Made by a program: the position numbers and the translations under genes. A stretch of 21,427 bases of DNA from Acidobacteriaceae bacterium (lineage in GTDB: Bacteria; Acidobacteriota; Terriglobia; Terriglobales; Acidobacteriaceae). The stretch covers positions 1-21,427 of the forward strand of contig JASHYS010000104.1 in assembly GCA_030042915.1 (NCBI GenBank). The letters run 5' to 3'. Positions 7,189-21,427 of this stretch are shown piece by piece. Under the pieces are notes generated by a model, which saw nothing but the letters and a program-made list of their open reading frames with translations, had not been told where the DNA came from and made no database searches. Each line of letters opens with the position of its first letter. The first letter of the stretch is position 1.

Positions 7189-10100
7189 CTAGTGCGATTT
7201 CCCCGTTACCGTCTGATTCGCCGACTGCGGTCCGGGCAACGGAGCCTGTTTGGGCACAGGCACACGTGCATCGCGGGCAAAATACCATCGTGCCGCAATG
7301 GAGAAGGTGTTCACCAGCAGACTCTGGTTGCTCACTTGGTTTGCGTAGAAGAACGCGGAGTAGGTTGGCGCGAACGAGAGGTTTCCAATTGACGGCAGCA
7401 CCAGCGACACGTTCAGCGGAATGGCATATTCGGTCTGCGTAGGCAATTCGGCTGCCGGCGGCCGTCCGAAATAATAATCCCCCTGTGAATCCGTTACTAG
7501 GCTGATCTGCTTCTGCCCGCCGGCCTTGCCATAAATATGGTTTTGGAGATGGAGGTCCCAATAGTAGCCGGGCGTATGCAGGGTCTGCACGAAAGGCTTG
7601 CCGACGACGGTTGTTGTGTCGTTAAGCGTAAGCACGATGGCCGGAGTCCCATAGAGTGCGCTGCCGAAGCAGGTTTGTAGTGTGATCTTCGCGAAGACGG
7701 GGCAGGTTTTTTGCTTGGGCCCGGTCGACGTGGTCGTCTGCAGCGTCAGAGACGACAGGTTGCCATTCGATATGTTGAATTCCATGCCCGTCTCAAAGTA
7801 GCTTCCAACCGTGGGCAGGAATCTGGTGGCGAATTTGGAGTGGCCCTGCCCAAACTCCTCCCTGAAACCGGCGCGATCGGTCCATGCGCTGATGCGTGGA
7901 AGTTGGACGGTGAGCTCGCCGGAAGGCACTTGGCCAGACGAGTACGTAAGGAACAAATAGGGTGTATCGATTTCAAGCTGATATTGATGCGGCGTGAAAA
8001 CCAACAGGCTCCGTGGCAGCGTTTGCACGCCACGCACAGCGTCTGCCCCGGCACCGCCGCCGAGACGCACCTGCAGGAAGGCGCCTTCAGTGAGATTATT
8101 CAACGGATAGGTCGCGTTGATAGGTTTGCCCGTCAAATTGCCGATGACTGCCCGGTCGTAGGAAAAGGCGCTCTGTTCCCCAACGGAGAACGGCGGAAAC
8201 CGCTTCGACTCGCCTGGTCCCGGACTGGAAACATTGGCCAAAATGCGGCTGCCCATTTCCAGGTCGAGAGACTGCTGGTTGGGCGCCGTGGCACGCGCGT
8301 CAGACACGCCCTGGAAGTACGAAGCCACAAACTGATTTCCTCCCACTGCCTCGCGTGAATTGAAGCTGGCGATCACCTTGGCAAAATCAACCTGATAGAG
8401 CCCCCTCTGCTGGAACCTTTCGTTATCCGCCGTGATAACCGTTTCCACTGGCTTCACTGTCTCGCTGGTTCCATTGAACAGATCCATCGCCAGGCTGGGT
8501 TGAGCTTCGCCCTGAGCCGTCAGATTATTTTGCAGGAAATGGGACAGCGGATTGCTGACGAATCTCTCCGTTACCTTGTGCATGTTCGTCGGCAGTGCTT
8601 GCAGCGTTCCGTAAATAGCCTTGTCCTGCGCCAATTGGTCGGTTGTCAACAGCCAGTAGTAAGCATCGTCGCTAATCGGTGTCCCGTCGATGCAATAAGT
8701 TGGCTGCCCGCCCGATGCTCCTTTGCAATGGGGATCGACGGGAATCCAAAGCGGCTCGTCGTTCTGGCTCACCTGGGTTAAATTGCTAAGGCTCGACTGC
8801 ACAATGCCATACGAAATCAACCACTGCCCTGTGGGGCCGGTATCGGCCAGCTGAGCCTGCTGTGCCATGTTGCTTTGCGATAAGCCGAGCATCTGTTCCA
8901 GTTCTTTTCCCGTTACCGCGACATATTCCAGGTAGTCGCCCTTCCAGAAGATGCGATCGAGGGCCGAGCGCAGCTCGCAAAGCTGGAATCTTTCCTGGTT
9001 GGTCTTCTCGTCCTTGCCCTCCTGGGTCTTCTCCCCGGCGCACATCTGGTAGTCGGTGTATCCTTTGCCGATCGCATCCAGTTCCACATCCCGGCTCTGC
9101 AGCAGAACCACGTCGGGCTTGGGCGGCGACGATTTCTGCAGGTCACGCAGAAGCGCAAACTCGGCTTTCTGCTTGCTTTCCAAGTCCTGTCCCATTCCGG
9201 TCTGCGACGAGGCGTTCTGAACCGTCGCGGAAGGGTTGGGCTGCTCGGCTGCAGCATTCTTGAGCGTCTCTACCAATTTGTAAAGGAGAGAGATGGTCGT
9301 GTCGGACTCACCGACGTCAGGAATCTTGAAATTGTCATCGCGCTGATTCGCCAGCGTAAAGCTGTTGTCGGCTTCAGTGCTCAGCGTCAGCAGCGAGACT
9401 GCTCCCGGATAGCTGCCGGTCTGGGAAGAGTAGCTGGTGCGCGGAGTCACCACAGGAGCCGGGTGGGAGGCTTGTGCCCCATCCTGAGCCTGATAAGTGA
9501 GCGTGATGTGCGGCGTGCCGTAGCCCGACTCGATTTCGCTCAGCACTACATCCACCTGTTGACTCGCATTGGCCAGCTTGAGTTGCTCCCTGACGCGTTC
9601 CGAGAGAATCTCTGCCTCGGTGTGAGGCATTTGCGCCATCACTACGACACGCTCGAAGGGTTTTTCCTCGAGCAATCTCGCGCCGCGGACAATGGCCTCG
9701 GTTGCCTCCATGGGATCCGCGACCAGAACTTGCTGCTCGCCGCCGGATTTGCCGGCTTTTCTGCGATCGCCGCAGGTTGAAAAGTCACTCGCGTCACTGG
9801 GCTTACCGGCAATACACAAATCAAGATTGGTCTCCGACACCGCCTTCATGGTGTCTTCGCCGACAACTCCGACAATCAAGATATGGCTGCCGTCTCCCGC
9901 GTCCGCCACGGTGTAGCCAACATCCTTCTCTTCATGAGCAATGGTGCGAAGCAAGCCATTGATGGCCGCGATTCTTGCCTCTTCGCTGAGCAGAAAGCAG
10001 GCGCCTGGGCTGGGTGTCCCGTTGTCAACGGTACATGGACCGGGTTTGCTGCTGTCTTGCAGGCTCTCGCCCAAGCTGCCGAGAATTTCGACCATTCGCT

Positions 10101-11361
10101 TGGCGTAGATGCACAAATCCGCTGCGTTGGCCTTGTCGACGTCACTGTCAAAGGCTGCGCCGGATTGGCAGGCCGGTAATCCGGAAAAAGCCTTCTCCAG
10201 ACCGTTCACCATATCCAAAGTGAGGTCCGGACTGCCGCTCTCACGCGTCCCCATCCCAAATTTACCCGGCAAAGTCGGAAGCTCGTTCTTCTTCGAAGAG
10301 TCAGGCGATGTCCATGCCTGGGGCGAACCCCATGCCGACTGCATGATGGCAATCTCGTCGCTCACCAGTGCATTCCGTCCCGCCACTTTTCCAGCGGCTG
10401 ACATCGATGTCCCGGTAGCCAGTTCACGAATCGCCTGCAATGCCGTGGTGCTCCTGCTGAGCCGGTCAAGGCGGTTGAGCCAGTCGAACGGCTCCGGCTC
10501 ATTGCCATCGCAGCGAAACTCCTCCCGCGCAAATGGATTCTTGCTGAACAGGAGCGGGCACTGCCCACTACCCCCGTTCGCACCGCCGGCGGAGTCACCT
10601 TCTTCTGCGCCCTTAGCCTTCATCGAAATGCGGAGGTTGGCGCCGAGCATATAAAGCTGGTTTTCCGGATTGCTGATGAGTTTCCGCTCTGCCGGGGCAT
10701 CTGCTTTACGTTGCTGCAAAACTTCTTCCCATGCACACTTCTGCACGTCCTCGTCTTTGCTCTTACCCGGGACGACATTCTTGCATTGATCCGAAATCTT
10801 AACCGTCGAGGGAGCCGCATTCAGGTCAGCATGCGATACCTGCGAGACCAGCACAGCTGCTTCTCGCAGCCAGCGCGCCGTGTACATAAAGTCCTGGCTT
10901 CCTGGAACTACCGCCCGAAAGCCCGCATGCATGAGGAAGTTAAGCACGTTGTCGCACTGCGCCTCATTGGGAACGCGATCGTCATCCTTATATAAGCTTT
11001 CCGGCCGTCCCTCGCCGCTGGGCGTTTGCTTGGGCGGCTGATCACAGGGCTTTGCGCCCTCCAATTGCAGCGATGCGCCGAACTCCGGCCCGAAGTTGTC
11101 ACCCATCCCCAGCAGCAACCTGCTGGAATCCAGTTGGCGAACCTTGAGGAAGCTCTGTACGGGAGGCAGGACCGCGTTCGTCGAGTCCTCGCCGTACTCC
11201 ATCCGGTAAAAGCCCATCAGGCTCCCTGTGTAATCGATCTTTATCTCAGATGCCTGCGCCTGGTTCGTCTGCCCATGGACGACGCAAACATAGAAAGGTG
11301 ATAGTGCCAACACCAGGGACACAACTGGGAGATAACGGCAGAGCGATTGAGCTGCGCGCAT
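7189..11361 (-). CDS. Large exported protein with a degenerate 5'-nucleotidase (UshA-like) scaffold and beta-rich C-terminus
   Basis: The product has 1390 residues with a signal peptide (~1-30, core LPVVSLVLALSPFYVCVV). The scaffold follows UshA-type 5'-nucleotidases: IKIDYTGSLMGFYR (41-53) stands where the DxH metal motif should be; LLLGMGDNF (82-90) keeps GDNF; AGFRAVVPGSQDF (146-158) replaces GNHEF with GSQDF; VVVMAQMPHTEAE (572-583) and VDVVLSEIESGYG (603-615) replace the HxG and GGHxH stretches. A C-terminal nucleotidase-like domain follows, with WKGDYLEYVAVTGKELEQML (806-825) and YYWLLTTDQLA (901-911). Large Gly/Ser/Cys-containing insertions (~190-540) separate the parts. Residues ~1120-1365 are alternating beta strands ending IAARWYF, reminiscent of an outer-membrane barrel or beta-sandwich. 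About 18 Cys occur in near pairs in the mature chain, suggesting disulfides. The start is fixed by GGAGGA upstream. Most metal ligands appear lost, so catalysis is doubtful. Confidence 0.75.
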   Translation of the reverse strand: MRAAQSLCRYLPVVSLVLALSPFYVCVVHGQTNQAQASEIKIDYTGSLMGFYRMEYGEDSTNAVLPPVQSFLKVRQLDSSRLLLGMGDNFGPEFGASLQLEGAKPCDQPPKQTPSGEGRPESLYKDDDRVPNEAQCDNVLNFLMHAGFRAVVPGSQDFMYTARWLREAAVLVSQVSHADLNAAPSTVKISDQCKNVVPGKSKDEDVQKCAWEEVLQQRKADAPAERKLISNPENQLYMLGANLRISMKAKGAEEGDSAGGANGGSGQCPLLFSKNPFAREEFRCDGNEPEPFDWLNRLDRLSRSTTALQAIRELATGTSMSAAGKVAGRNALVSDEIAIMQSAWGSPQAWTSPDSSKKNELPTLPGKFGMGTRESGSPDLTLDMVNGLEKAFSGLPACQSGAAFDSDVDKANAADLCIYAKRMVEILGSLGESLQDSSKPGPCTVDNGTPSPGACFLLSEEARIAAINGLLRTIAHEEKDVGYTVADAGDGSHILIVGVVGEDTMKAVSETNLDLCIAGKPSDASDFSTCGDRRKAGKSGGEQQVLVADPMEATEAIVRGARLLEEKPFERVVVMAQMPHTEAEILSERVREQLKLANASQQVDVVLSEIESGYGTPHITLTYQAQDGAQASHPAPVVTPRTSYSSQTGSYPGAVSLLTLSTEADNSFTLANQRDDNFKIPDVGESDTTISLLYKLVETLKNAAAEQPNPSATVQNASSQTGMGQDLESKQKAEFALLRDLQKSSPPKPDVVLLQSRDVELDAIGKGYTDYQMCAGEKTQEGKDEKTNQERFQLCELRSALDRIFWKGDYLEYVAVTGKELEQMLGLSQSNMAQQAQLADTGPTGQWLISYGIVQSSLSNLTQVSQNDEPLWIPVDPHCKGASGGQPTYCIDGTPISDDAYYWLLTTDQLAQDKAIYGTLQALPTNMHKVTERFVSNPLSHFLQNNLTAQGEAQPSLAMDLFNGTSETVKPVETVITADNERFQQRGLYQVDFAKVIASFNSREAVGGNQFVASYFQGVSDARATAPNQQSLDLEMGSRILANVSSPGPGESKRFPPFSVGEQSAFSYDRAVIGNLTGKPINATYPLNNLTEGAFLQVRLGGGAGADAVRGVQTLPRSLLVFTPHQYQLEIDTPYLFLTYSSGQVPSGELTVQLPRISAWTDRAGFREEFGQGHSKFATRFLPTVGSYFETGMEFNISNGNLSSLTLQTTTSTGPKQKTCPVFAKITLQTCFGSALYGTPAIVLTLNDTTTVVGKPFVQTLHTPGYYWDLHLQNHIYGKAGGQKQISLVTDSQGDYYFGRPPAAELPTQTEYAIPLNVSLVLPSIGNLSFAPTYSAFFYANQVSNQSLLVNTFSIAARWYFARDARVPVPKQAPLPGPQSANQTVTGKSH

Positions 11362-11425: not shown

Positions 11426-13561
11426 TCAATCGTTTTCAGGTGCCGGGCTAACGTCGAGTGCGACTTCAGCCTTCCTTGCCCATCCATTGGCCTGCTCAGT
11501 CACCGCGGGACGCTCTTCCGGCTCGTTTGCTTTGGCCTTTCTTCGCGGCCCGAGCTCGGGTGGCAGCTCATTCGAAATCAGCCAAACGCTCCGCGATGGC
11601 AATTTCAAGGCACGCCCGGCCGCGCGAATCGCGTCGGGGTTGTCAAGATCGACGATCAGATTGTAGTGCGCAGGCTGCGCATCGGCGATCGCCTGATCGA
11701 CCTCTTTTGTCGCCTCGGCCAGCCACTCGCCGTAGAGGCGGATGGCCCGCACCGGGCGCAGTTCGATACCCACCTCCGCCATGATCTGCGGAAGTTTGGC
11801 CACTTCTTGCCGGTTGTAATCCTTATTTCCTGGCGCCAACTCCTTTTTATTGTCCGCCGAGTCGGTCCAGTCGTACAGGCTGGGGTCGTCTCGCCATGCC
11901 GAACGAGGCCTATTCTCAGCCAGGCGCCGCTCGATAGAGTAGCGGCGGTGCTCGAGCCTTGCCAGCCTCTCAATTTGGTCATCGCTCAGCCTGGCCACGG
12001 TTGGCGAAGCGACCTCCTCAAGGTGCATTCCCGCCAGTTCCATCAGTATCGGCGTGTGGTCCGCGCGCCAACGGTTCGACATCTTATAGAACTGAGGCAA
12101 TTCATCCCACGGCACGGCCGCCTGGGGATTCTTGGTGGACCGTTTCAGATAGTCGGCGTGAAGCGCCTGCGCAAACTCATCCAGCTTCGACCCGAGCAAA
12201 ACATCCGGGCTGAGCGTTTCTTCCAGCGTTCCAAAAATCTCGACCCGTCCGCTGAAGTTGGACATTTTCTCCATTTCGCGCACCAGCTTACCCAACTGGC
12301 GGTAATACTCGAGACGCACGTAAATCGGTACGTAGAGATGGTTATTGCGGTCGAGCAGCGAGCGCACATCCAGCGCGGTGCTCAGAGTCACCTGGTCGTC
12401 GCCCATGGCCACCACAATACCCAGCAGCCGCCCTGCTTCCTCCAGCTTGGGCTCAACGATCCGCGTCAGGTCCGGAGACCACTCCGAGACCGATGCCGTG
12501 ACGAACTCCACCGACGCCAGGTCCAGAGCTGCGGGATCGGTGACCGTAAAGCGCGTTTTTGCCTCCTCGGCCTTCTCGTCGAAAACCAGGATCTTCAGTG
12601 TCCTCCCAAGCGCCACCGGGTACGCTCGGATCAGATGTAGTGCGATCTCGCGGCCGTAGGCACCGAAGCCAATCAGAACGAAGGTTTGCGCCTCAAACTC
12701 CGGGCGGGGCGGCAGGTGCAAGCGCTTGATGAGCATACGCGCCGCGTCAGTGAACGGGTTGAAGAGACGCAGATCGATGTTGGCCAGGCCCTCAGCGCGC
12801 CTTTCGCTGGCTGTCACCCTCCTGCGCATCCAGTCACTGCGCACTTGCGCCAATACACGAATTCTGCCGGATCCTAGATCGGCGGCATTAGCATTCATGG
12901 AATTGATCTGCAGAGCAATATCCAGGTTCTCGCCGTCCGAGCCGGTGGTGATCACCGCAGTTTGCGCCCGCCGGATGCCCGCCGCGAGCAGGACCTCGGG
13001 ATTCTTGGCGTCGCCTTGCACCAGCGGAACTCCGCTTTTTTCGCAGGTTGCGGCGCCGGACGAATTATCCTTGAGATCGACGGCGACAACGTGTTGACCC
13101 GACGTGCGCAGATTCTGAATCACCTGCATGCCCACATCCCCGATGCCACAGACGACGGTGTGATTCGACTTGCGCCGCGCCAGAGCTGTGCGAAGATTCT
13201 TTCTGACTCCGACGAGGAACACCGTCCCAGCTCCGAAGAGCGCTATGCCCGGGACCAGGAATTGTGCAGCGATCAGTTGCCAGGGAGCTTCGCCGGGTTG
13301 ATAGAGATCGTAAAACCGGATGAGTCCGACGGCGCTGAAAACGCACTTCCAGAATTCCAGCCACGGAGAGGGATTTTCCGTCCGCCAAGGCGGCGGAGTC
13401 TTCTTGAATTCCTGATATTGGTATTCTCTTAGGAATTTGCTGTTCGGGGCGCCAGGCTCGGGGCTGAAATCATTCCCCGCCCGGGCGAATCCCCACAAAC
13501 CGAGCCCGATGGAGACAAATGCGCCTGCGATGATCCATTTGACTCGAGAATGCTTGCCCAT
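11426..13561 (-). CDS. Membrane protein with two TrkA-N (RCK) domains and a RyR-type C-terminal region
   Basis: The product has 711 residues. Helix one is VKWIIAGAFVSIGLGLWGFA (8-27). A second membrane region (~69-118) contains FWKCVFSAVGLIRFY and then a helix around AAQFLVPGIALFGAG. No TVGYG potassium filter is present. The first Rossmann domain begins at VVCGIGDVGMQVIQ (136-149) with Asp162 after strand two, the usual sign of dinucleotide binding. The second begins FVLIGFGAYGREIALHL (294-310). The tail (~480-600) matches prokaryotic RyR repeats: VPWDELPQFYKMSNR (483-497), LARLEHRRYSIERRLAENR (533-551) and ELAPGNKDYNRQEV (574-587). A small alpha/beta tail closes the protein. RCK domains gate channels on nucleotide binding; RyR domains in bacteria accompany nucleotide-centred signalling proteins. 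The stop of the upstream SLOG gene is 32 bases away, so they are co-transcribed. The ATG at 13561 is preferred over an upstream start that would overlap that gene. Confidence 0.85.
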   Translation of the reverse strand: MGKHSRVKWIIAGAFVSIGLGLWGFARAGNDFSPEPGAPNSKFLREYQYQEFKKTPPPWRTENPSPWLEFWKCVFSAVGLIRFYDLYQPGEAPWQLIAAQFLVPGIALFGAGTVFLVGVRKNLRTALARRKSNHTVVCGIGDVGMQVIQNLRTSGQHVVAVDLKDNSSGAATCEKSGVPLVQGDAKNPEVLLAAGIRRAQTAVITTGSDGENLDIALQINSMNANAADLGSGRIRVLAQVRSDWMRRRVTASERRAEGLANIDLRLFNPFTDAARMLIKRLHLPPRPEFEAQTFVLIGFGAYGREIALHLIRAYPVALGRTLKILVFDEKAEEAKTRFTVTDPAALDLASVEFVTASVSEWSPDLTRIVEPKLEEAGRLLGIVVAMGDDQVTLSTALDVRSLLDRNNHLYVPIYVRLEYYRQLGKLVREMEKMSNFSGRVEIFGTLEETLSPDVLLGSKLDEFAQALHADYLKRSTKNPQAAVPWDELPQFYKMSNRWRADHTPILMELAGMHLEEVASPTVARLSDDQIERLARLEHRRYSIERRLAENRPRSAWRDDPSLYDWTDSADNKKELAPGNKDYNRQEVAKLPQIMAEVGIELRPVRAIRLYGEWLAEATKEVDQAIADAQPAHYNLIVDLDNPDAIRAAGRALKLPSRSVWLISNELPPELGPRRKAKANEPEERPAVTEQANGWARKAEVALDVSPAPEND

Positions 13562-13562
13562 A

Positions 13563-13569
13563 CTCCTCC
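13563..13569 (-). promoter_or_regulatory. Ribosome binding site for the TrkA-N/RyR gene
   Basis: GGAGGAG on the minus strand is almost adjacent to the ATG at 13561. The spacing is shorter than usual but the match is full. It sits in the 32-base gap after the SLOG gene and supports separate initiation within one transcript. Confidence 0.5.
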
Positions 13570-13593
13570 ACGAACTGCCCCGGCCACACCCGA

Positions 13594-15456
13594 TCAGCCG
13601 GGAAGGTTCAACTTCCGGTAGCGAAAGACGAAGCTCCAATCCATGGTTTCAGAAATCATGGTACCCGCAATGCGTTGCGCCGCTCGGCACAAGGCCGCTG
13701 AGCCCTCGGGCACGCTTTTGATCGCCTCATCGAGATCATTGGCGCGGAGAGACTGCAGCACCTCTTCCATAGTCGCCGATCGATCAGCACTGCGCGCAAA
13801 TTCCCCTTGATTGGCGATGGCATAAAATGCCGCACCCAAAGCCGGCGGAACGACAGCCAGCACCACCAGCCACGACACCAGCCATGGCGACTCTTGCCTG
13901 CTGCTGGGCAGCAGGTGCGCAACGCACGCCAGCAGCGTGACCACGAACAGGCTGGTCCCGATGAGGTGCACGCGATGGCTGAGTCTGTGCATGATCTTGT
14001 GGTTGGCTTTGTGGTAGTCAATCTGCCCAGCCAGGATGTGATCGATCATTTCCCCTATCGCCAGCAGATAGCCGGGTTTCGCATTGCCGGGCGCTAATCC
14101 AATATCGCGGGCAATTATTCGAAACATGCCGTCCACCCATGATCGGTGCGGGTCAGAGCCAACGTGGGCGGGAGGACGTGGTGAAGGCAGGGGGCACCCC
14201 AGCGGAGCCAGGTAACAGTATTGCCGAAGAAGCTCTGCTAATTGCCTGTAGTTAAGCCAGCGCTCATGCCAGTGTCTTCGCTGCCCATGAAACGTAATCG
14301 ACAAAATCGCTACAATTAACCCCAATTCCAACCATGTCGGAATTTTGTACCGGACTTCGATGCGGAACGAATAACGGAGAATGTAGCCGATGATCGGCAC
14401 CAGCACTGCGCATGCGCTCAGCAGGCTTGTTCCCATGGAAGTACTGCGCAGCAGTCCCGCATAATTCACCGACAAACCGTCGGCCCACGCATAATGCGGG
14501 CAGAGTTTGTCCAACAGATAGTGGTGCGTTGCTTCCGGCAAGTCGGGCTTAGTCGGGATCGTGCTCTCCCAATCGCTGCGCGCCGTCGGCTCGAAATCCC
14601 TTACCCGCCACGACCCCCTGCGAAACTTGCCGCGGGCGATTAGATCGCGAAAGATGCGAAAGATTCGCCCGGCGTCGAATCTTGGCTGCTTCTCAGCGAA
14701 ATATGCATGGCTCAACACAAGAGACTCCTCGTCTTCGCCGGTGATTTGCGTGAACCGGGAGGCAAGTACTTCGCCCAGCATTTTCAGTGGGTATTGCTTT
14801 CGCTGCCCATTTTCGTCCGTTACGAGGATGTGCGGCTCCATAGCTTCAGCAGCGTGCAACCACACCACCGGTACGTTCTGCGCGATCGCCTCGTCGATCA
14901 TCTGCGTGGTCCCGCCTCGCCCTGCTGCGGGCTTCCCATCCCAGACAGCGATCAGGAAATCGGATTGCTCGATCACCATCCGGCCCACGTTCTCATACGC
15001 GGCTTCTTCCTCGTCGCGCCGCCCGTCAGCTTCGAAAACCGCAGACGCCCTCGCCAGCAGCGCAAAAAACTCTTCGCGCGACCCCTCGCTGGCAAAATCG
15101 CGGCTGTACTCATCGGCATCGAACGGCAGCGGGCATTGCAAATCAGCGCCCATGGCCAGCCCCACCTGGGCCACAATCCGGTCTGAACCCTCCGCGATCG
15201 GCGAAATGATGCGCAGCAGCGGCGGTCCCGGCGCGTGCAGTAATGGGTCGTGCGCGCGAGCAGCCAGCGTGGCAATGGCTTTCAGAGCCTCCTCGCACTG
15301 CTGTGGCAAATCGGCGGCGACCTCGGGCGACAGCCGGTTGGGTCGATGGCCCGTCACCCCGACTTGCACTACCTGGCGTGGCCGCGGCGGCGAGCTGGAT
15401 GGGTGGATTGCCATGGCGCGCTGATTCGAGGATGCTCCCAATTCTGCGTTGAGCAT
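13594..15456 (-). CDS. SLOG-domain sensor fused to two SLATT-like transmembrane pairs
   Basis: The product has 620 residues from the ATG at 15456; the ATG at 15414 (606 residues) is equally possible, as neither has a good ribosome site. A SLOG (LOG/DprA-like Rossmann) domain spans ~28-205: VVQVGVTGHRPNRL (29-42), SPIAEGSDRIVAQVGLAMGA (85-104), LPFDADEYSRDF (110-121), and SDFLIAVWDGKPAAGRGGTT (165-184), the last being the phosphate-binding GGT turn. After a linker comes HYAWADGLSVNYAGLLRSTS (321-340), TM1 (~346-362), TM2 (~375-390), a helix WLNYRQLAELLRQY (400-413), and then a second pair, TM3 (~497-516) and TM4 (~525-547), and a helical tail. The ADxLA..Y....RS and YRxLAExLR signatures fit SLATT-type membrane effectors, which are predicted to form pores when a SLOG or nucleotidyltransferase partner senses a nucleotide. 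It heads the operon with the TrkA-N/RyR gene. The role is inferred from domains only. Confidence 0.8.
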   Translation of the reverse strand: MLNAELGASSNQRAMAIHPSSSPPRPRQVVQVGVTGHRPNRLSPEVAADLPQQCEEALKAIATLAARAHDPLLHAPGPPLLRIISPIAEGSDRIVAQVGLAMGADLQCPLPFDADEYSRDFASEGSREEFFALLARASAVFEADGRRDEEEAAYENVGRMVIEQSDFLIAVWDGKPAAGRGGTTQMIDEAIAQNVPVVWLHAAEAMEPHILVTDENGQRKQYPLKMLGEVLASRFTQITGEDEESLVLSHAYFAEKQPRFDAGRIFRIFRDLIARGKFRRGSWRVRDFEPTARSDWESTIPTKPDLPEATHHYLLDKLCPHYAWADGLSVNYAGLLRSTSMGTSLLSACAVLVPIIGYILRYSFRIEVRYKIPTWLELGLIVAILSITFHGQRRHWHERWLNYRQLAELLRQYCYLAPLGCPLPSPRPPAHVGSDPHRSWVDGMFRIIARDIGLAPGNAKPGYLLAIGEMIDHILAGQIDYHKANHKIMHRLSHRVHLIGTSLFVVTLLACVAHLLPSSRQESPWLVSWLVVLAVVPPALGAAFYAIANQGEFARSADRSATMEEVLQSLRANDLDEAIKSVPEGSAALCRAAQRIAGTMISETMDWSFVFRYRKLNLPG

Positions 15457-15575: not shown

Positions 15576-15599
15576 AAAAAACCGTGCGCACTTTTGCGC
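15576..15599 (-). terminator. Weak intrinsic-terminator-like hairpin after the malic enzyme gene
   Basis: On the minus strand GCGCA, a 4-base loop and TGCGC are followed after 4 bases by a run of six T. The stem is only 5 bp, so termination may be partial. It begins 35 bases past the malic enzyme stop and before the palindrome and start of the SLOG gene, which fits a boundary between two transcription units. Confidence 0.35.
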
Positions 15600-17407: not shown

Positions 17408-19402
17408 CTAAAACTCGCACAAGCTGGTCACGAAGTCCGCAGAGCCGTCGCGAAGCCAGGCATCCAGTTGCGCGGGTTCCTTCAGTTGCTGGCCGCGCAT
17501 GCGCGGCACAATCACGTACTCGCACGCCATTTGCGGGAGGGCCGTCATATCGCCCCACAGCTTTTCAAACTGTGCCACCGGATAGATGTCTTCCTGCCCC
17601 TTGCCCCACCGTTTCTTCACATCTTTGAGCGTGATGTAGGTCGGCATGCGGGCGGCCATGGCGCGGACGGCCGCGGCAACCTTGTCTTGATTCGCCAGGT
17701 CGTCCCTGCTCAACGAAAAGACGCGAAGCAGTGCATCGATGTCGATCCAAAATGTATTGGAGTTGTAATAGGAAAGCCGGAACTCTGTCTCTTCTGAAGG
17801 AAATGCCAGCCCTTCCACAAGACGCATGCGCCCGTCAACGCACGCCAGTCCGCCGCCGCGGTCCTCGACACGGCGCGTCACGACTTCCACCGTCATCGCC
17901 GCCTTGCGTGCTATGTGCCATCCCAGGATGCCGGGATTGAGATCGGTTCCCACCGTGTCTATGTTGTGAACCATGAGGTGCCGTAGCTGGGGCCGCGCAT
18001 CGAGCAGCCTTTTCAGCACGCCGCTGCGCAGAAGGTTCGGCACCTCGAACCAATGTCCTACCGGGTGCAGGCATTGCAAGGGAAGATTATCGGTGTAGTC
18101 GCTGGCCTCACCCGCTTGCTGCGCCCAAGCAATCAGCGCAGCACGCACACTGTCGCGCACCTTTTGCGCCTGGGAGTCAAGCAGCTGCTGCGGCGTTTCT
18201 TCCCATGCAAAATGAAGGTCCCGCACTGTAGGGATCAATCGCAAACCAACACTCTGCCCCGGCGAAAGGTAAAGTGGCCCTGGATATCCGTAATTTCGTT
18301 CACGGCGAAGATGCTCATCGATGGTCCCATGCGTGAGATAACTCGTGGTAATGACATGGGGCACGGTACAGCCGAAGAGCCGTCCGATGCGCCGGCTCTT
18401 TGCCAGATGCACCTCGAGGAAGGTGCGATGTGTTCCCGTCAGGCGGCAGAAAGGGCTAAGCGCTTTCACCACACCCGCGCCTCTCGTCCAGCGGCTACCC
18501 ACACCTCCGCTCAGCGTAACGACCGCTAAGGCTCCGCTTGCCAGCGCAGTTTCTCCCAGCGAACGGTACTTTGCATCGACCCCCTGTCTTGCATCAAGAA
18601 GCTTGTCCGCTGCCGCATCTTCAATTTGCATCAGCGCGGGAAGCCGGTTCTGGGCAAGCCCGATATGACCGGCGCGCAGCTCTGCCCGTATGCGTTCATG
18701 CTGAATCCGATCGAAGCCATTCTGCGTCAGCAAGGAATCCAGTGAGTCGCCGTGCTCCTCGTCGTGATCGCCGCGCGGCAGCAGCCGATCAAGAAGGCCC
18801 CGGCTTCGGTCGCGCGCGCCTGGAACGTCATGGCAGAGAGCGCTGAATCGCTCCAGGTCAGCGCGCTCACAGGCCGACAGCAGACGCTGATCTTTCCTCA
18901 GCATGGCAGGCAGCACGATGTTGTAGTAGCCATCGGGCAAAATCGCAGCGCTGCCGGTTTTGAGCTCTGCGAACGTCCCGCGTTCATTGATGCTGAAGTC
19001 GTAAACAACCGGTTCCATGGCAAAGGCAATGCCACTGGAGAGCCTGCCGCTCACTTCCTTCATCACGGCTTGCAGACGGATTTGCGCTTCCGCCTTGCGT
19101 CGGGGATCGAAAATGAAACCCATTCCACCGCCCGACATGCCTCCCAGCATCCAGAATCCCCAGAAAGCATCTCCGAAGATCCCGCGCACCTCTCTGATAA
19201 GAGTCTCAGTATAAAAATTGCTCGCCCAGGGAATGATGGTTTGAATTGGCCCATCGAAGTTCCTTTGCGTCGCGTTGCCGACTGCACGCACATCCCCTTT
19301 GCGCAGATCCGCGAGAATTTCGTCCAGAATCGTAGATGCCGTCTGGCGAGCGGTCCATTCGGCATCGCAGCGAAGCAGGATGGCGAGCGGTCCATTCGGC
19401 AT
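17408..19402 (-). CDS. C-terminal fragment of a GHMP kinase/UDPGP pyrophosphorylase fusion (frameshifted gene)
   Basis: The frame encodes 664 residues from an in-frame ATG created inside the 37-bp duplication, with no obvious ribosome site, so it may not be translated alone. The first ~150 residues complete the GHMP kinase and include motif 3, [19 protein letters not shown] helical linker follows. From about residue 295 comes a UDPGP-type nucleotidyltransferase, with [20 protein letters not shown] as the nucleotide-binding Gly-rich loop and [19 protein letters not shown] as the sugar/metal loop. UDPGP enzymes join UTP and a sugar-1-phosphate to form a UDP-sugar and pyrophosphate. In the restored protein this half covers residues ~456-1107. 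The sugar is unknown; UDP-sugar or UDP-HexNAc pyrophosphorylase activity is a reasonable expectation. Sequence character and composition match the neighbours, so the break seems recent. Confidence 0.8.
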
Positions 19403-20768
19403 CGCAGCGAAGCAGGTATCTCTCGGTCACCATCTCCAGAATGGGTCCAACATCCTGTGCCATTCCGCCGTGCACGAGAACGAGGCTTTCCTGCAGTCGC
19501 CGGCGGGTCTCTTCGCTGACTTCGGCCTCGGTGAGAGTGCGGTGATTGGGCAGCAATCTGCCACGGCTGATGCCGAATTCAGGATCGCCCTCGCCTGCCT
19601 GCACTCCTTGGATGAGTTTGACTCCCGGCCACACGCCTCCTGAGTCCTGCCATCCGCCCCCTGACCCTCCCAACCACTCACCGAGAATGGCGCGCGCCGC
19701 CACAACGCGGCGCTCCGCCTCAGTCAAACAGCCCGCGAGGCATGAAGTCTGGCCAGTCGCGCGCATGCACACAGTAATCAGCGATGCGAGCAATGTAGTA
19801 GAAACCGCCAGCCGCGAACCCTTGGGGATATTGTTCACTTTGCTGACAATCTCAATACCAGCGCCGCTCCCCTGCATTAACTGAGCAAGCAAATCGGCAA
19901 GCGGATGGCCTGAGCCTTCCAATCCGGGCGGCACAATACCCGAAGCGATCACAGCTGCCTTGAGCAATCCAAGATAATCGCGGCCAAAGTCAAAAAGCTC
20001 TCGCAGGCCGCTGATTTCCGTGGTCGCATCCAGATCTACGCTCACCAGGCGGATGATGGGGCGATCGATGACGCGCAGATGGGCTTCGACCGGCGGTCTC
20101 GGTCCATGCACACTCGCTCCATGAATCGCGAGGTCGATAGAGACATTGAGCACGCGCGCCATTTCAGGTAGATCCATGCCCAGAAAAAAAATGTCGCTCC
20201 AGCCACTGTGGCTGAGGTCCATCCGCACAGGCGTGGATTCATGCAGAATCGGATAGGGATCTCCGGGGCCTCGCCTGAGCAGCTCTTTGCGCAAGCGAAG
20301 CGGGTAATCGGCTGGGTGCCCGCTGCGAAACATCCACTGATTGCCGCGCACCGAGCGCACGCTGCGCCTTACCTGGTCGGCAAGCGTCTGGAAGGCGAGC
20401 CCGCGATAAGCCGATGAAAGCGCGCTCGAGAGTCCGTCGCTCGGCCCCTCGGCGGTCTGAGCCGCCAGGAAGATTGCAATGGCCTCTTCATATCGCCGGC
20501 TCAGCAATTTCTCGTAACCGGCAAAGGGTATCAGCGCTCTGCCGATTCCAATCTCCCGCTTGGCCGGCAGATGAAAACGGTGAATCGCATGGAGAAAAAA
20601 AAGTGCTCGAACCCGCTCGTAGAGGTTTTCACTGGAGCGCCTAAGCCCTTCGAGTTGCGATGCTTCCGCCAGCAGCTCGGCCGCGGTAGCGTCGCGGCAA
20701 TATGCGTCGAGAGAGCGGTTACGCAACTCAGGATCAGCGGCCTTGATGATTTTCCAAAGTCCGCTCAC
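19206..20768 (-). CDS. N-terminal fragment of a GHMP sugar kinase/UDPGP fusion, truncated by frameshift
   Basis: Translation probably begins at the GTG at 20768, two bases after the GalU-like stop and 7 bases after GAAAGAGG. The frame runs on upstream, but that part overlaps the other gene and reads like a shadow. Residues ~1-140 are helical. [15 protein letters not shown] (178-192) is the N-terminal GHMP signature seen in fucokinases and heptose kinases. [18 protein letters not shown] (312-329) is the ATP-binding motif 2 region, and [17 protein letters not shown] (366-382) resembles the Gly-rich fucokinase loop. The true sequence ends at about residue 462; the last ~58 residues are out of frame because of the 37-bp duplication, so motif 3 and the pyrophosphorylase half are lost. 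As written, this product should be inactive. Anomeric phosphorylation of a sugar is the expected role of the intact enzyme. Confidence 0.75.
19344..19416. repeat. 37-bp-period direct tandem duplication causing a frameshift
   Basis: Bases 19344-19379 and 19381-19416 are identical over 36 bases, separated by one A. The period of 37 is not a multiple of three and shifts the minus-strand reading frame by one. Removing one period joins [15 protein letters not shown] directly to [14 protein letters not shown] and gives an open frame of exactly 1108 codons from 20768 to 17408. Confidence 0.95.
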
Positions 20769-20770
20769 GC

Positions 20771-21427
20771 TCAGGCCTCTTTCGCAGACAACATCTCGCG
20801 AACAGCCAAAACATTGAGCAGCTGATTGAGAACTTCGTCGCGGTCCTGCCCGCTCAGTGCCAGGGCCAGTTGTGCGGTAAACAGGCCATATTTCACTCCT
20901 ACATCGAAACGCTGCCCTGCCTGAACCATGGCCAGATATTGCTCGCGCTGTGCCAGCACGGCAAGCGCGGAAGAAAGACTTGGCCGCGCCGCTGGTGACT
21001 CCGACAAAAATGCAGAGAGAATTTCGAAGACCGCCGGCGTGAGCACGTGCATCCCATAAAAACAAAGGTATTGGCCACCGCGCAGGCCGGGAACAATCAG
21101 GCTCTGCTCGGCTTCGGTCGGTGACGGCTTCTCCAGGACCGTATCCACACGATAGAAGCCCGGCTTGCCCGGCAACGGCTGCCCTCCGACAGTGCCGTAA
21201 AAAGGCAACAGAGCTTCTCGCGTCACCTGCACGGCCGAGATAGCACACCCTTCAACCGATGCCGCTTCCACCAGCCGCTTTGCGGCTCCGCTCGATTCCG
21301 CACCAACGTAAATATGATCGCCAACGAAATGGAGAAACGGCTCGTCCTTGACGAAACTCTGGGCGCACGCCACAGCATGCGCATAGCCTCGCGCTTCCTT
21401 CTGTTGCACAAAGGTCAGGTGCGCTCC
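20771..21427 (-). CDS. GalU-like nucleotidyltransferase, N-terminus beyond the window end
   Basis: The frame is open to the last base; 218 C-terminal residues are visible, so the GTG at 21409 is not the real start. The visible part begins at [19 protein letters not shown], the strand and loop after the nucleotide site of GalU-type enzymes. [10 protein letters not shown] corresponds to the metal-binding Asp region, and [16 protein letters not shown] is the characteristic VEKP segment, followed by [15 protein letters not shown] and a C-terminal RFDVGVKYG strand. GalU enzymes make UDP-glucose from UTP and glucose-1-phosphate; here the end of the protein departs from classical GalU (no GEIQLTDA), so the sugar may differ. 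The stop is 2 bases before the GTG of the kinase/pyrophosphorylase gene, so translation of the two is probably coupled. Confidence 0.75.
20776..20782 (-). promoter_or_regulatory. Ribosome binding site for the GTG start at 20768
   Basis: AAAGAGG on the minus strand lies inside the last codons of the GalU-like gene, 7 bases before GTG. It supports a GTG start and translational coupling of the two genes. Confidence 0.45.

Follow-up and report, generated by a model that had tools for sequence, protein, structure and literature searches.

Why should a gene for a SLOG-SLATT protein stand beside one for a channel-like protein with TrkA-N and RyR domains, and what might the two do together? The question is posed by a 21,427-nucleotide stretch from an Acidobacteriaceae bacterium (this whole stretch is what we call the window), in which a first-pass annotation had noticed such a pair. 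Profiles and folds confirm that observation and place the pair in a cassette of three consecutive minus-strand genes, P0003 starting 64 bases past the end of P0001. The first-pass annotation had missed the third gene, as well as the layout of two transmembrane (2TM) helices and tandem RCK units in P0001 and the link to TIR genes described below.

13594..15456, minus strand: P0002, SLOG-SLATT protein, 620 amino acids (open reading frame (ORF), profiles, fold)
11426..13561, minus strand: P0001, protein with 2TM, tandem RCK (TrkA-N) and RyR parts, 711 amino acids (ORF, profiles, fold)
7189..11361, minus strand: P0003, third gene, 1390 amino acids, with a signal-peptide-like N-terminus and a possible degenerate 5'-nucleotidase-like region

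We favour, at about even odds, the reading that this is a Thoeris-like signalling cassette which acts at the membrane and stops the growth of a threatened cell, over three alternatives: ion homeostasis, a RyR off-switch, and sensing of outside nucleotides. We do so because the families of SLOG, of RyR and of TIR, the last a neighbour in some relatives, are all tied to signals of the cyclic ADP-ribose (cADPR) type, and because two membrane parts here are channel-like; the ties come from experiments elsewhere (PMC11204291, PMC13232231). The three-gene unit, present in some soil acidobacteria, brings SLOG and ryanodine-receptor (RyR) domains, relatives of which bind alarm molecules derived from NAD, together with channel-like membrane parts. 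It may serve these bacteria as a so far uncharacterised switch in immunity or stress, with the same receptor domain as an animal calcium channel.

Domains and folds of the pair

The SLOG and SLATT domain calls made earlier for P0002 both held, and its parts can be placed as follows.

14737..15375, minus strand: Rossmann domain of SLOG type, roughly residues 28-240; GVTGHR, SPxAEGxDR, WDG and GRGGT are conserved
14209..14520, minus strand: SLATT_1/DUF4231 region and first membrane helix pair, residues 313-416 (profile, alignment)
13813..13965, minus strand: second membrane helix pair, residues 498-548 (alignment; long model helices at 461-515 and 524-551)

By fold P0002 belongs to the Rossmannoid SLOG superfamily, its matches including the SLOG domain of ThsA with 3'cADPR and the regulatory region of TRPM2 and TRPM4, with ADP-ribose-bound TRPM2 entries among them. 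SLATT_1 and DUF4231 match at E <= 0.01 in all 19 of the 19 P0002-family members considered, while the window's protein taken alone scores 25.0 against 24.7 bits for DUF4231 and falls below the cut-off for SLATT_1. Sequence searches of the PDB with the P0002 and P0003 families returned chance-level matches or none. From the fold we predict that the SLOG domain may be the receptor for a TIR product. TRPM2 is a membrane channel with a regulatory region of SLOG type; we limit the resemblance to the SLOG fold and make no such claim for the membrane part. An alternative start, Met15 at 15414, lies approximately where many aligned relatives begin.

P0001 divides into four parts.

13172..13558, minus strand: TM1, pore-helix-like segment (residues 66-80), loop at the filter position, TM2 (94-130) (model secondary structure, GsuK and MthK alignments, column table)
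12713..13171, minus strand: RCK1 (TrkA-N), residues 131-283 (Pfam)
12176..12685, minus strand: RCK2, residues 293-462 (by fold only)
11762..12124, minus strand: RyR (R12-type) domain, residues 480-600 (family profile; alignment to RyDEP)

The two TrkA-N domains of the first-pass annotation are thus a tandem of RCK units, the first recognised by Pfam and the second by a fold match over residues 133-462. The best folds for P0001 are KtrA, TrkA, GsuK and MthK, and the GsuK and MthK structure alignments begin within its TM part, over which the model has a predicted local distance difference test (pLDDT) score of 50-83. The closest channel that possesses a TM part is GsuK, whose entries include NAD- and ADP-bound forms. 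These folds speak for an ion or osmotic homeostasis role, in which P0001 would be an RCK-gated channel that follows energy state through NAD(H)/ADP and is regulated by P0002 as the sensor of nucleotides, and neither would have an immune function. Against this, the TVGYG selectivity filter of potassium channels is missing from the filter region in our alignment of the family (A4, 86 rows, with 85 of at least 107 P0001 homologues; the companion alignments A5 and A6 hold 113 of 120 and 31 of 99 rows). A conserved loop, S-S/A-I/V-G-L-x-R, takes its place and includes Arg82, and the sole TVGYG-pattern match in A4 (P0037, residue 27) lies outside the filter region, which rules out a canonical potassium channel. 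P0001 shares its 2TM layout with the RCK-gated channels GsuK, MthK, Slo and CASTOR-DMI1, and tandem RCK units with GsuK, Slo and CASTOR, but adds a RyR domain, a different filter loop and a neighbouring SLOG gene. CASTOR also lacks TVGYG and is a calcium channel (PMC6697748).

RyR homology stood as well, though as one domain rather than the several repeats first proposed; a second repeat in P0001 can be rejected. PF02026 matches at E <= 0.01 in 8 of 16 P0001-family members, and the family profile matches a RyR1 chimera at 1.2e-7, while the Pfam scan of the window's P0001 by itself did not detect the domain.

Gene pairing and neighbouring conflict genes

If the two proteins work together, their genes should stay together. 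Our samples comprised 15 of at least 107 other P0001 homologues (A1; 7993 best candidates scored) and 18 of the 120 P0002-type proteins listed among 284 found (A2). Of the 20 loci examined, 18 have most of the RCK part (L001-L018), and L019 and L020 were dropped as partial. RyR homology is fused to the RCK part throughout these 18 except in L012, where it is a separate ORF. A gene with a SLOG domain adjoins the P0001 homologue in 14 of the 18, in both gene orders, so that the side-by-side conservation, for which a survey of acidobacteria had been proposed earlier, extends beyond acidobacteria and across phyla. In 10 of the 14 the neighbour is SLOG-SLATT, including an alphaproteobacterium (L009) and Nitrosomonas (L015 and L018, with the order reversed), and in four actinobacterial loci (L011, L013, L016, L017) it is SLOG alone; since SLATT can be missing, SLOG with RCK/RyR is the wider core and SLATT an optional part. 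No SLOG gene adjoins in L005, L010, L012 and L014; in G010 a different contig carries a weak match (E 3.7e-6). Because 15 of the 18 genomes hold a single A2 match, and in 14 of these it is the adjacent gene, the adjacency is not due to gene density; chance adjacency is ruled out by the 14 of 18 loci, all from single-match genomes.

The unit is patchy. In the genus of one relative (80 species), P0001 occurs in 8 genomes and full-length P0002- and P0003-type proteins in 7 each, with all three genes on one contig in the same 7; G005 has P0001 without the other two and G114 a distant P0003 without the pair, while any P0002-type match, partial or weaker ones included, is found in 21. Within the order, at least 4 of 298 sampled genomes hold a full-length P0001 (three candidates scored per genome), and some match occurs in 107, mostly to other TrkA-N proteins. 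All three families are putatively found together on 9 public contigs (P0002 list 78 of 120 rows, P0003 list 98 of 99). Homeostasis genes are mostly widespread, so this patchiness argues against the ion homeostasis reading.

So does the company that the pair keeps. TIR_2 genes occur in 5 of the 18 loci (L002, L003, L004, L009, L018), where genome counts lead us to expect 0.315, and DUF4062 genes in 4 (L011, L013, L017, L018), where we expect 0.035. The Poisson probabilities are 2e-5 and 6e-8, or 3e-4 and 6e-4 with related loci counted once; the test covers 18 of the 20 loci, assumes that the genes are evenly spread and takes rounded sizes for genomes that are incomplete, and the L016 genome, whose DUF4062 gene is on another contig, was scored as a miss. 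On balance we consider ion homeostasis unlikely. Conflict genes are thus enriched near the pair across these loci, but a scan of 11 window ORFs turned up none.

In two relatives a TIR gene lies between P0001 and P0003.

L003, 7789-9441, opposite strand: ThsB-like TIR gene inside the cassette (PADLOC)
L004, 12116-13552, opposite strand: ThsB-like TIR gene inside the cassette (PADLOC)

Both proteins match ThsB best in PADLOC (E 7.3e-20 and 3.5e-20) and have a membrane-type hydrophobic segment followed by differing C-terminal parts, with BNR-type repeats in L003. L001 has the same upstream flank and no TIR gene between P0001 and P0003. In L018 the pair is surrounded by SIR2-TIR, nSTAND1, CHASE2 and DUF4062 genes, and on a Caballeronia plasmid a SLOG-SLATT gene is followed by a TIR gene and then by an nSTAND1 gene annotated as WD40.

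Thoeris itself consists of a TIR protein, ThsB, and an effector, ThsA, of SIR2-SLOG or TM-macro type. The likeness here lies in a SLOG domain fused to an effector part, in the ThsB-like partner of L003 and L004, and in an effector at the membrane, as with TM-macro ThsA (PMC11204291). The differences are that the effector part is SLATT, not SIR2, that a channel-like RCK/RyR gene and P0003 are added, and that a TIR (ThsB) gene was not found in the window (11 ORFs scanned), whose cassette therefore does not count as Thoeris proper. The domain families are also those of the nucleotide-centred SLOG/SLATT conflict systems described by Burroughs, Aravind and colleagues, where SLATT is predicted to be a nucleotide- or ADP-ribose-regulated membrane effector (PMC9503650, PMC7159879). 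RyR and TrkA are absent from the main texts searched from that field, although a 2015 survey of these domains may list the architecture. The families were already known, while the arrangement of SLOG-SLATT with RCK/RyR was not found within the openly licensed literature searched, which does not include that survey.

The RyR pocket and the proposed signal

Could the RyR domain read the same signal? Phage RyDEP cleaves 2'/3'cADPR, 6 of 8 tested homologues bind these molecules and two homologues sequester cADPR, the ligand residues of RyDEP being His75, Trp78, His100 and Asp117 (PMC13232231, a May 2026 preprint). We aligned RyDEP with 86 rows of the P0001 family and 11 stretches from the loci, and counted over those 97, RyDEP excluded. 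The His75 position is His in 81 rows (window His538), the Trp78 position is aromatic in 94 (Tyr541), the His100 position is His in 12 (Asp559), and the Asp117 position is Asn in 65, Glu in 23 and Asp in 5 (Asn583). P0001 thus belongs to the same domain family as RyDEP and animal RyR Repeat12, with the His75 and Trp78 positions largely kept, but differs in residing on a cellular membrane protein and in its Asp117 position. The window lacks the complete catalytic dyad of a RyDEP-type glycosidase (His75 and Asp117), having only its His, and since the dyad is changed in most rows, the family's RyR fits a binder better than an enzyme; Glu at the Asp117 position might still serve for cleavage. Since the window's own pocket is partly lost, ligand binding cannot be assumed for this copy.

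These counts bear on an antagonistic arrangement, in which P0002 would be the effector and the RyR of P0001 would soak up or destroy the signal as an off-switch. RyDEP and its sequestering homologues (PMC13232231) are precedents, and stand-alone RyR ORFs upstream of TM-RCK genes (L012, L014) would suit it. The residues at the Asp117 position argue against cleavage by most members, and a membrane channel-like protein would be an odd site for a sponge, so that we regard this arrangement as quite improbable.

RyR-like sequences also occur in other settings. The separate RyR-type ORFs of the Hydrogenedentota loci L012 (345-656) and L014 (9138-9548) lie immediately upstream of TM-RCK genes. In two other genomes of the order (L025, 1432-3384; L026, 40-1977) the RyR-part match follows, by eye, an AAA ATPase-like region. 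L019 has, beside a TM-RCK gene and a caspase-domain gene, an ATPase-like protein whose AAA and RyR matches both stay below threshold. On a Sinorhizobium plasmid (L041) two adenylate/guanylate cyclase genes are close to a distant P0001 relative whose RyR match is likewise below threshold. Weak RyR-like stretches are found in 59 phage records.

The domains, the folds, the association of the genes across phyla and the enrichment of TIR and DUF4062 are what the analysis shows; the trigger, the ligand, conduction by either pore and the role of P0003 are inferred in the scheme that follows. A TIR enzyme would turn NAD into a signal of ADP-ribose type (2'/3'cADPR or a related molecule); some relatives encode such an enzyme within the cassette, and others may do so at another place in the genome. 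On binding the signal, the SLOG domain of P0002 would open or cluster the SLATT helices. P0001 would be a channel-like subunit with two TM helices, and its tandem RCK units would form a gating ring that reads NAD(H) or ADP, while its RyR domain reads the same signal as P0002. Jointly the two would alter membrane permeability and stop the growth of the threatened cell, and P0003 would be an envelope-facing partner in the acidobacterial form. The first-pass idea that the pair senses or makes a nucleotide ligand is strengthened by cADPR binding in the RyDEP family (PMC13232231) and by the conflict genes nearby.

Several observations weigh against this Thoeris-like reading. Of the four ligand residues of RyDEP, the window's RyR domain has one unchanged (His), one conservatively replaced (Trp to Tyr) and two changed, and it lacks the GWxYGP stretch of other members. 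The enrichment test presumes that TIR and DUF4062 genes are evenly spread, and it has few independent lineages behind it. The scan of 11 window ORFs gave no TIR gene, and PADLOC gives no match there and has no model for the P0001/P0002 pair. Searches for P0001 in viral contigs, for P0002 in phage records and for P0003 in plasmids found no relative; the plasmid relatives of P0001 (two Sinorhizobium) and P0002 (two Caballeronia, one Novosphingobium) are all distant. The named genes flanking the cassette in the window are metabolic, and TIR is absent from the locus in 5 of the 8 acidobacterial relatives L001-L008, both of which also favour ion homeostasis. Pore opening and phage defence, as first suggested, can be put no more firmly than before, given the lack of a PADLOC match and of conflict genes in the window and the non-canonical filter loop.

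A more specific version of the Thoeris-like reading, which we hold only tentatively, is an ion-channel immune system in which two independent receptors read one NAD-derived signal: SLOG would gate a SLATT pore, and RyR R12 a tandem-RCK channel. A cell rather than a phage would then use RyR as a cADPR receptor, and would do so on a channel; the nucleotide control of the animal channels RyR and TRPM2 may possibly go back to an arrangement of this type. It is an old dispute whether cADPR acts on animal RyR channels and, if so, in what way. The matter is raised again in PMC13232231 (2026 preprint). If a RyR domain on a bacterial RCK channel does answer TIR products, a small protein would suffice for testing this, and an RCK-gated channel class would join the effectors of immune signalling. 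Thoeris-like systems would also gain a SLOG-SLATT branch, and there would be a first point of entry to the P0003 family, for which our searches found no described function.

The third gene, allele divergence and genomic context

What might P0003 contribute? A link to 5'-nucleotidases is only hinted at: the Pfam profile 5_nucleotid_C matches the family weakly (E 0.14, best member 0.039, five of eight members at E <= 1), and an hhalign comparison with two nucleotidases gives a 28-column match (E 0.045, probability 1.2). The metal-ligand motifs of 5'-nucleotidases are GNHE and GHxH, and neither was seen by eye in the P0003 alignments; with such scores, an active 5'-nucleotidase is unsupported. 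The C-terminus may, from its sequence, be an outer-membrane barrel. One could imagine P0003 detecting or capturing outside nucleotides and the pair relaying this inwards, the association with defence being secondary. The occurrence of full-length P0003 with the pair in the same 7 genomes and contigs would fit, as would the membrane-type segment and further part of the L003/L004 TIR proteins and the weak 5_nucleotid_C signal. We find this very doubtful, since P0003 relatives were not found in the proteobacterial and actinobacterial loci and nucleotidase homology is unproven.

Divergence between loci offers a further view of the cassette. Between the window and the syntenic L007, synonymous divergence (dS) is 0.94 (0.80-1.15) for P0001, and 0.40 for P0002, 0.46 for P0003, 0.33 for the malic enzyme and 0.31 for UDPGP. 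Elsewhere another gene stands out: P0002 between L001 and L004 (1.12, 0.93-1.39, versus 0.54-0.58) and P0003 between L002 and L004 (1.26 versus 0.64-0.66); the L006/L008 pair has no single-gene jump. Of the 28 locus pairs compared, the majority are too divergent to tell. Single components seem to have been replaced by divergent alleles, in the manner of gene sets on which the pressure from outside varies, or that gene may have diverged faster.

The eight cassette loci fall into three genomic contexts, with no flanking genes in common within the available flanks: the window with L007; L001-L004 (L002 on one side only); and L006 with L008. A Pfam scan of 11 window ORFs recognised as neighbours malic enzyme, UDPGP and nucleotidyltransferase-like ORFs and a GH30 glycosidase. 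One further feature lies between the malic enzyme gene and P0002.

15586..15599, minus strand: terminator-like hairpin (consensus match only)

If this hairpin is a terminator, the cassette would be a unit separate from the malic enzyme gene; such hairpins, by consensus match only, number 13 in the region where 9.2 are expected. At 17408-21409 a UDPGP/nucleotidyltransferase-type stretch of the window is split over several overlapping ORFs, two of which match a single 1110-residue ORF in L007 (1991-5323), so that the split is possibly a frameshift or an assembly error.

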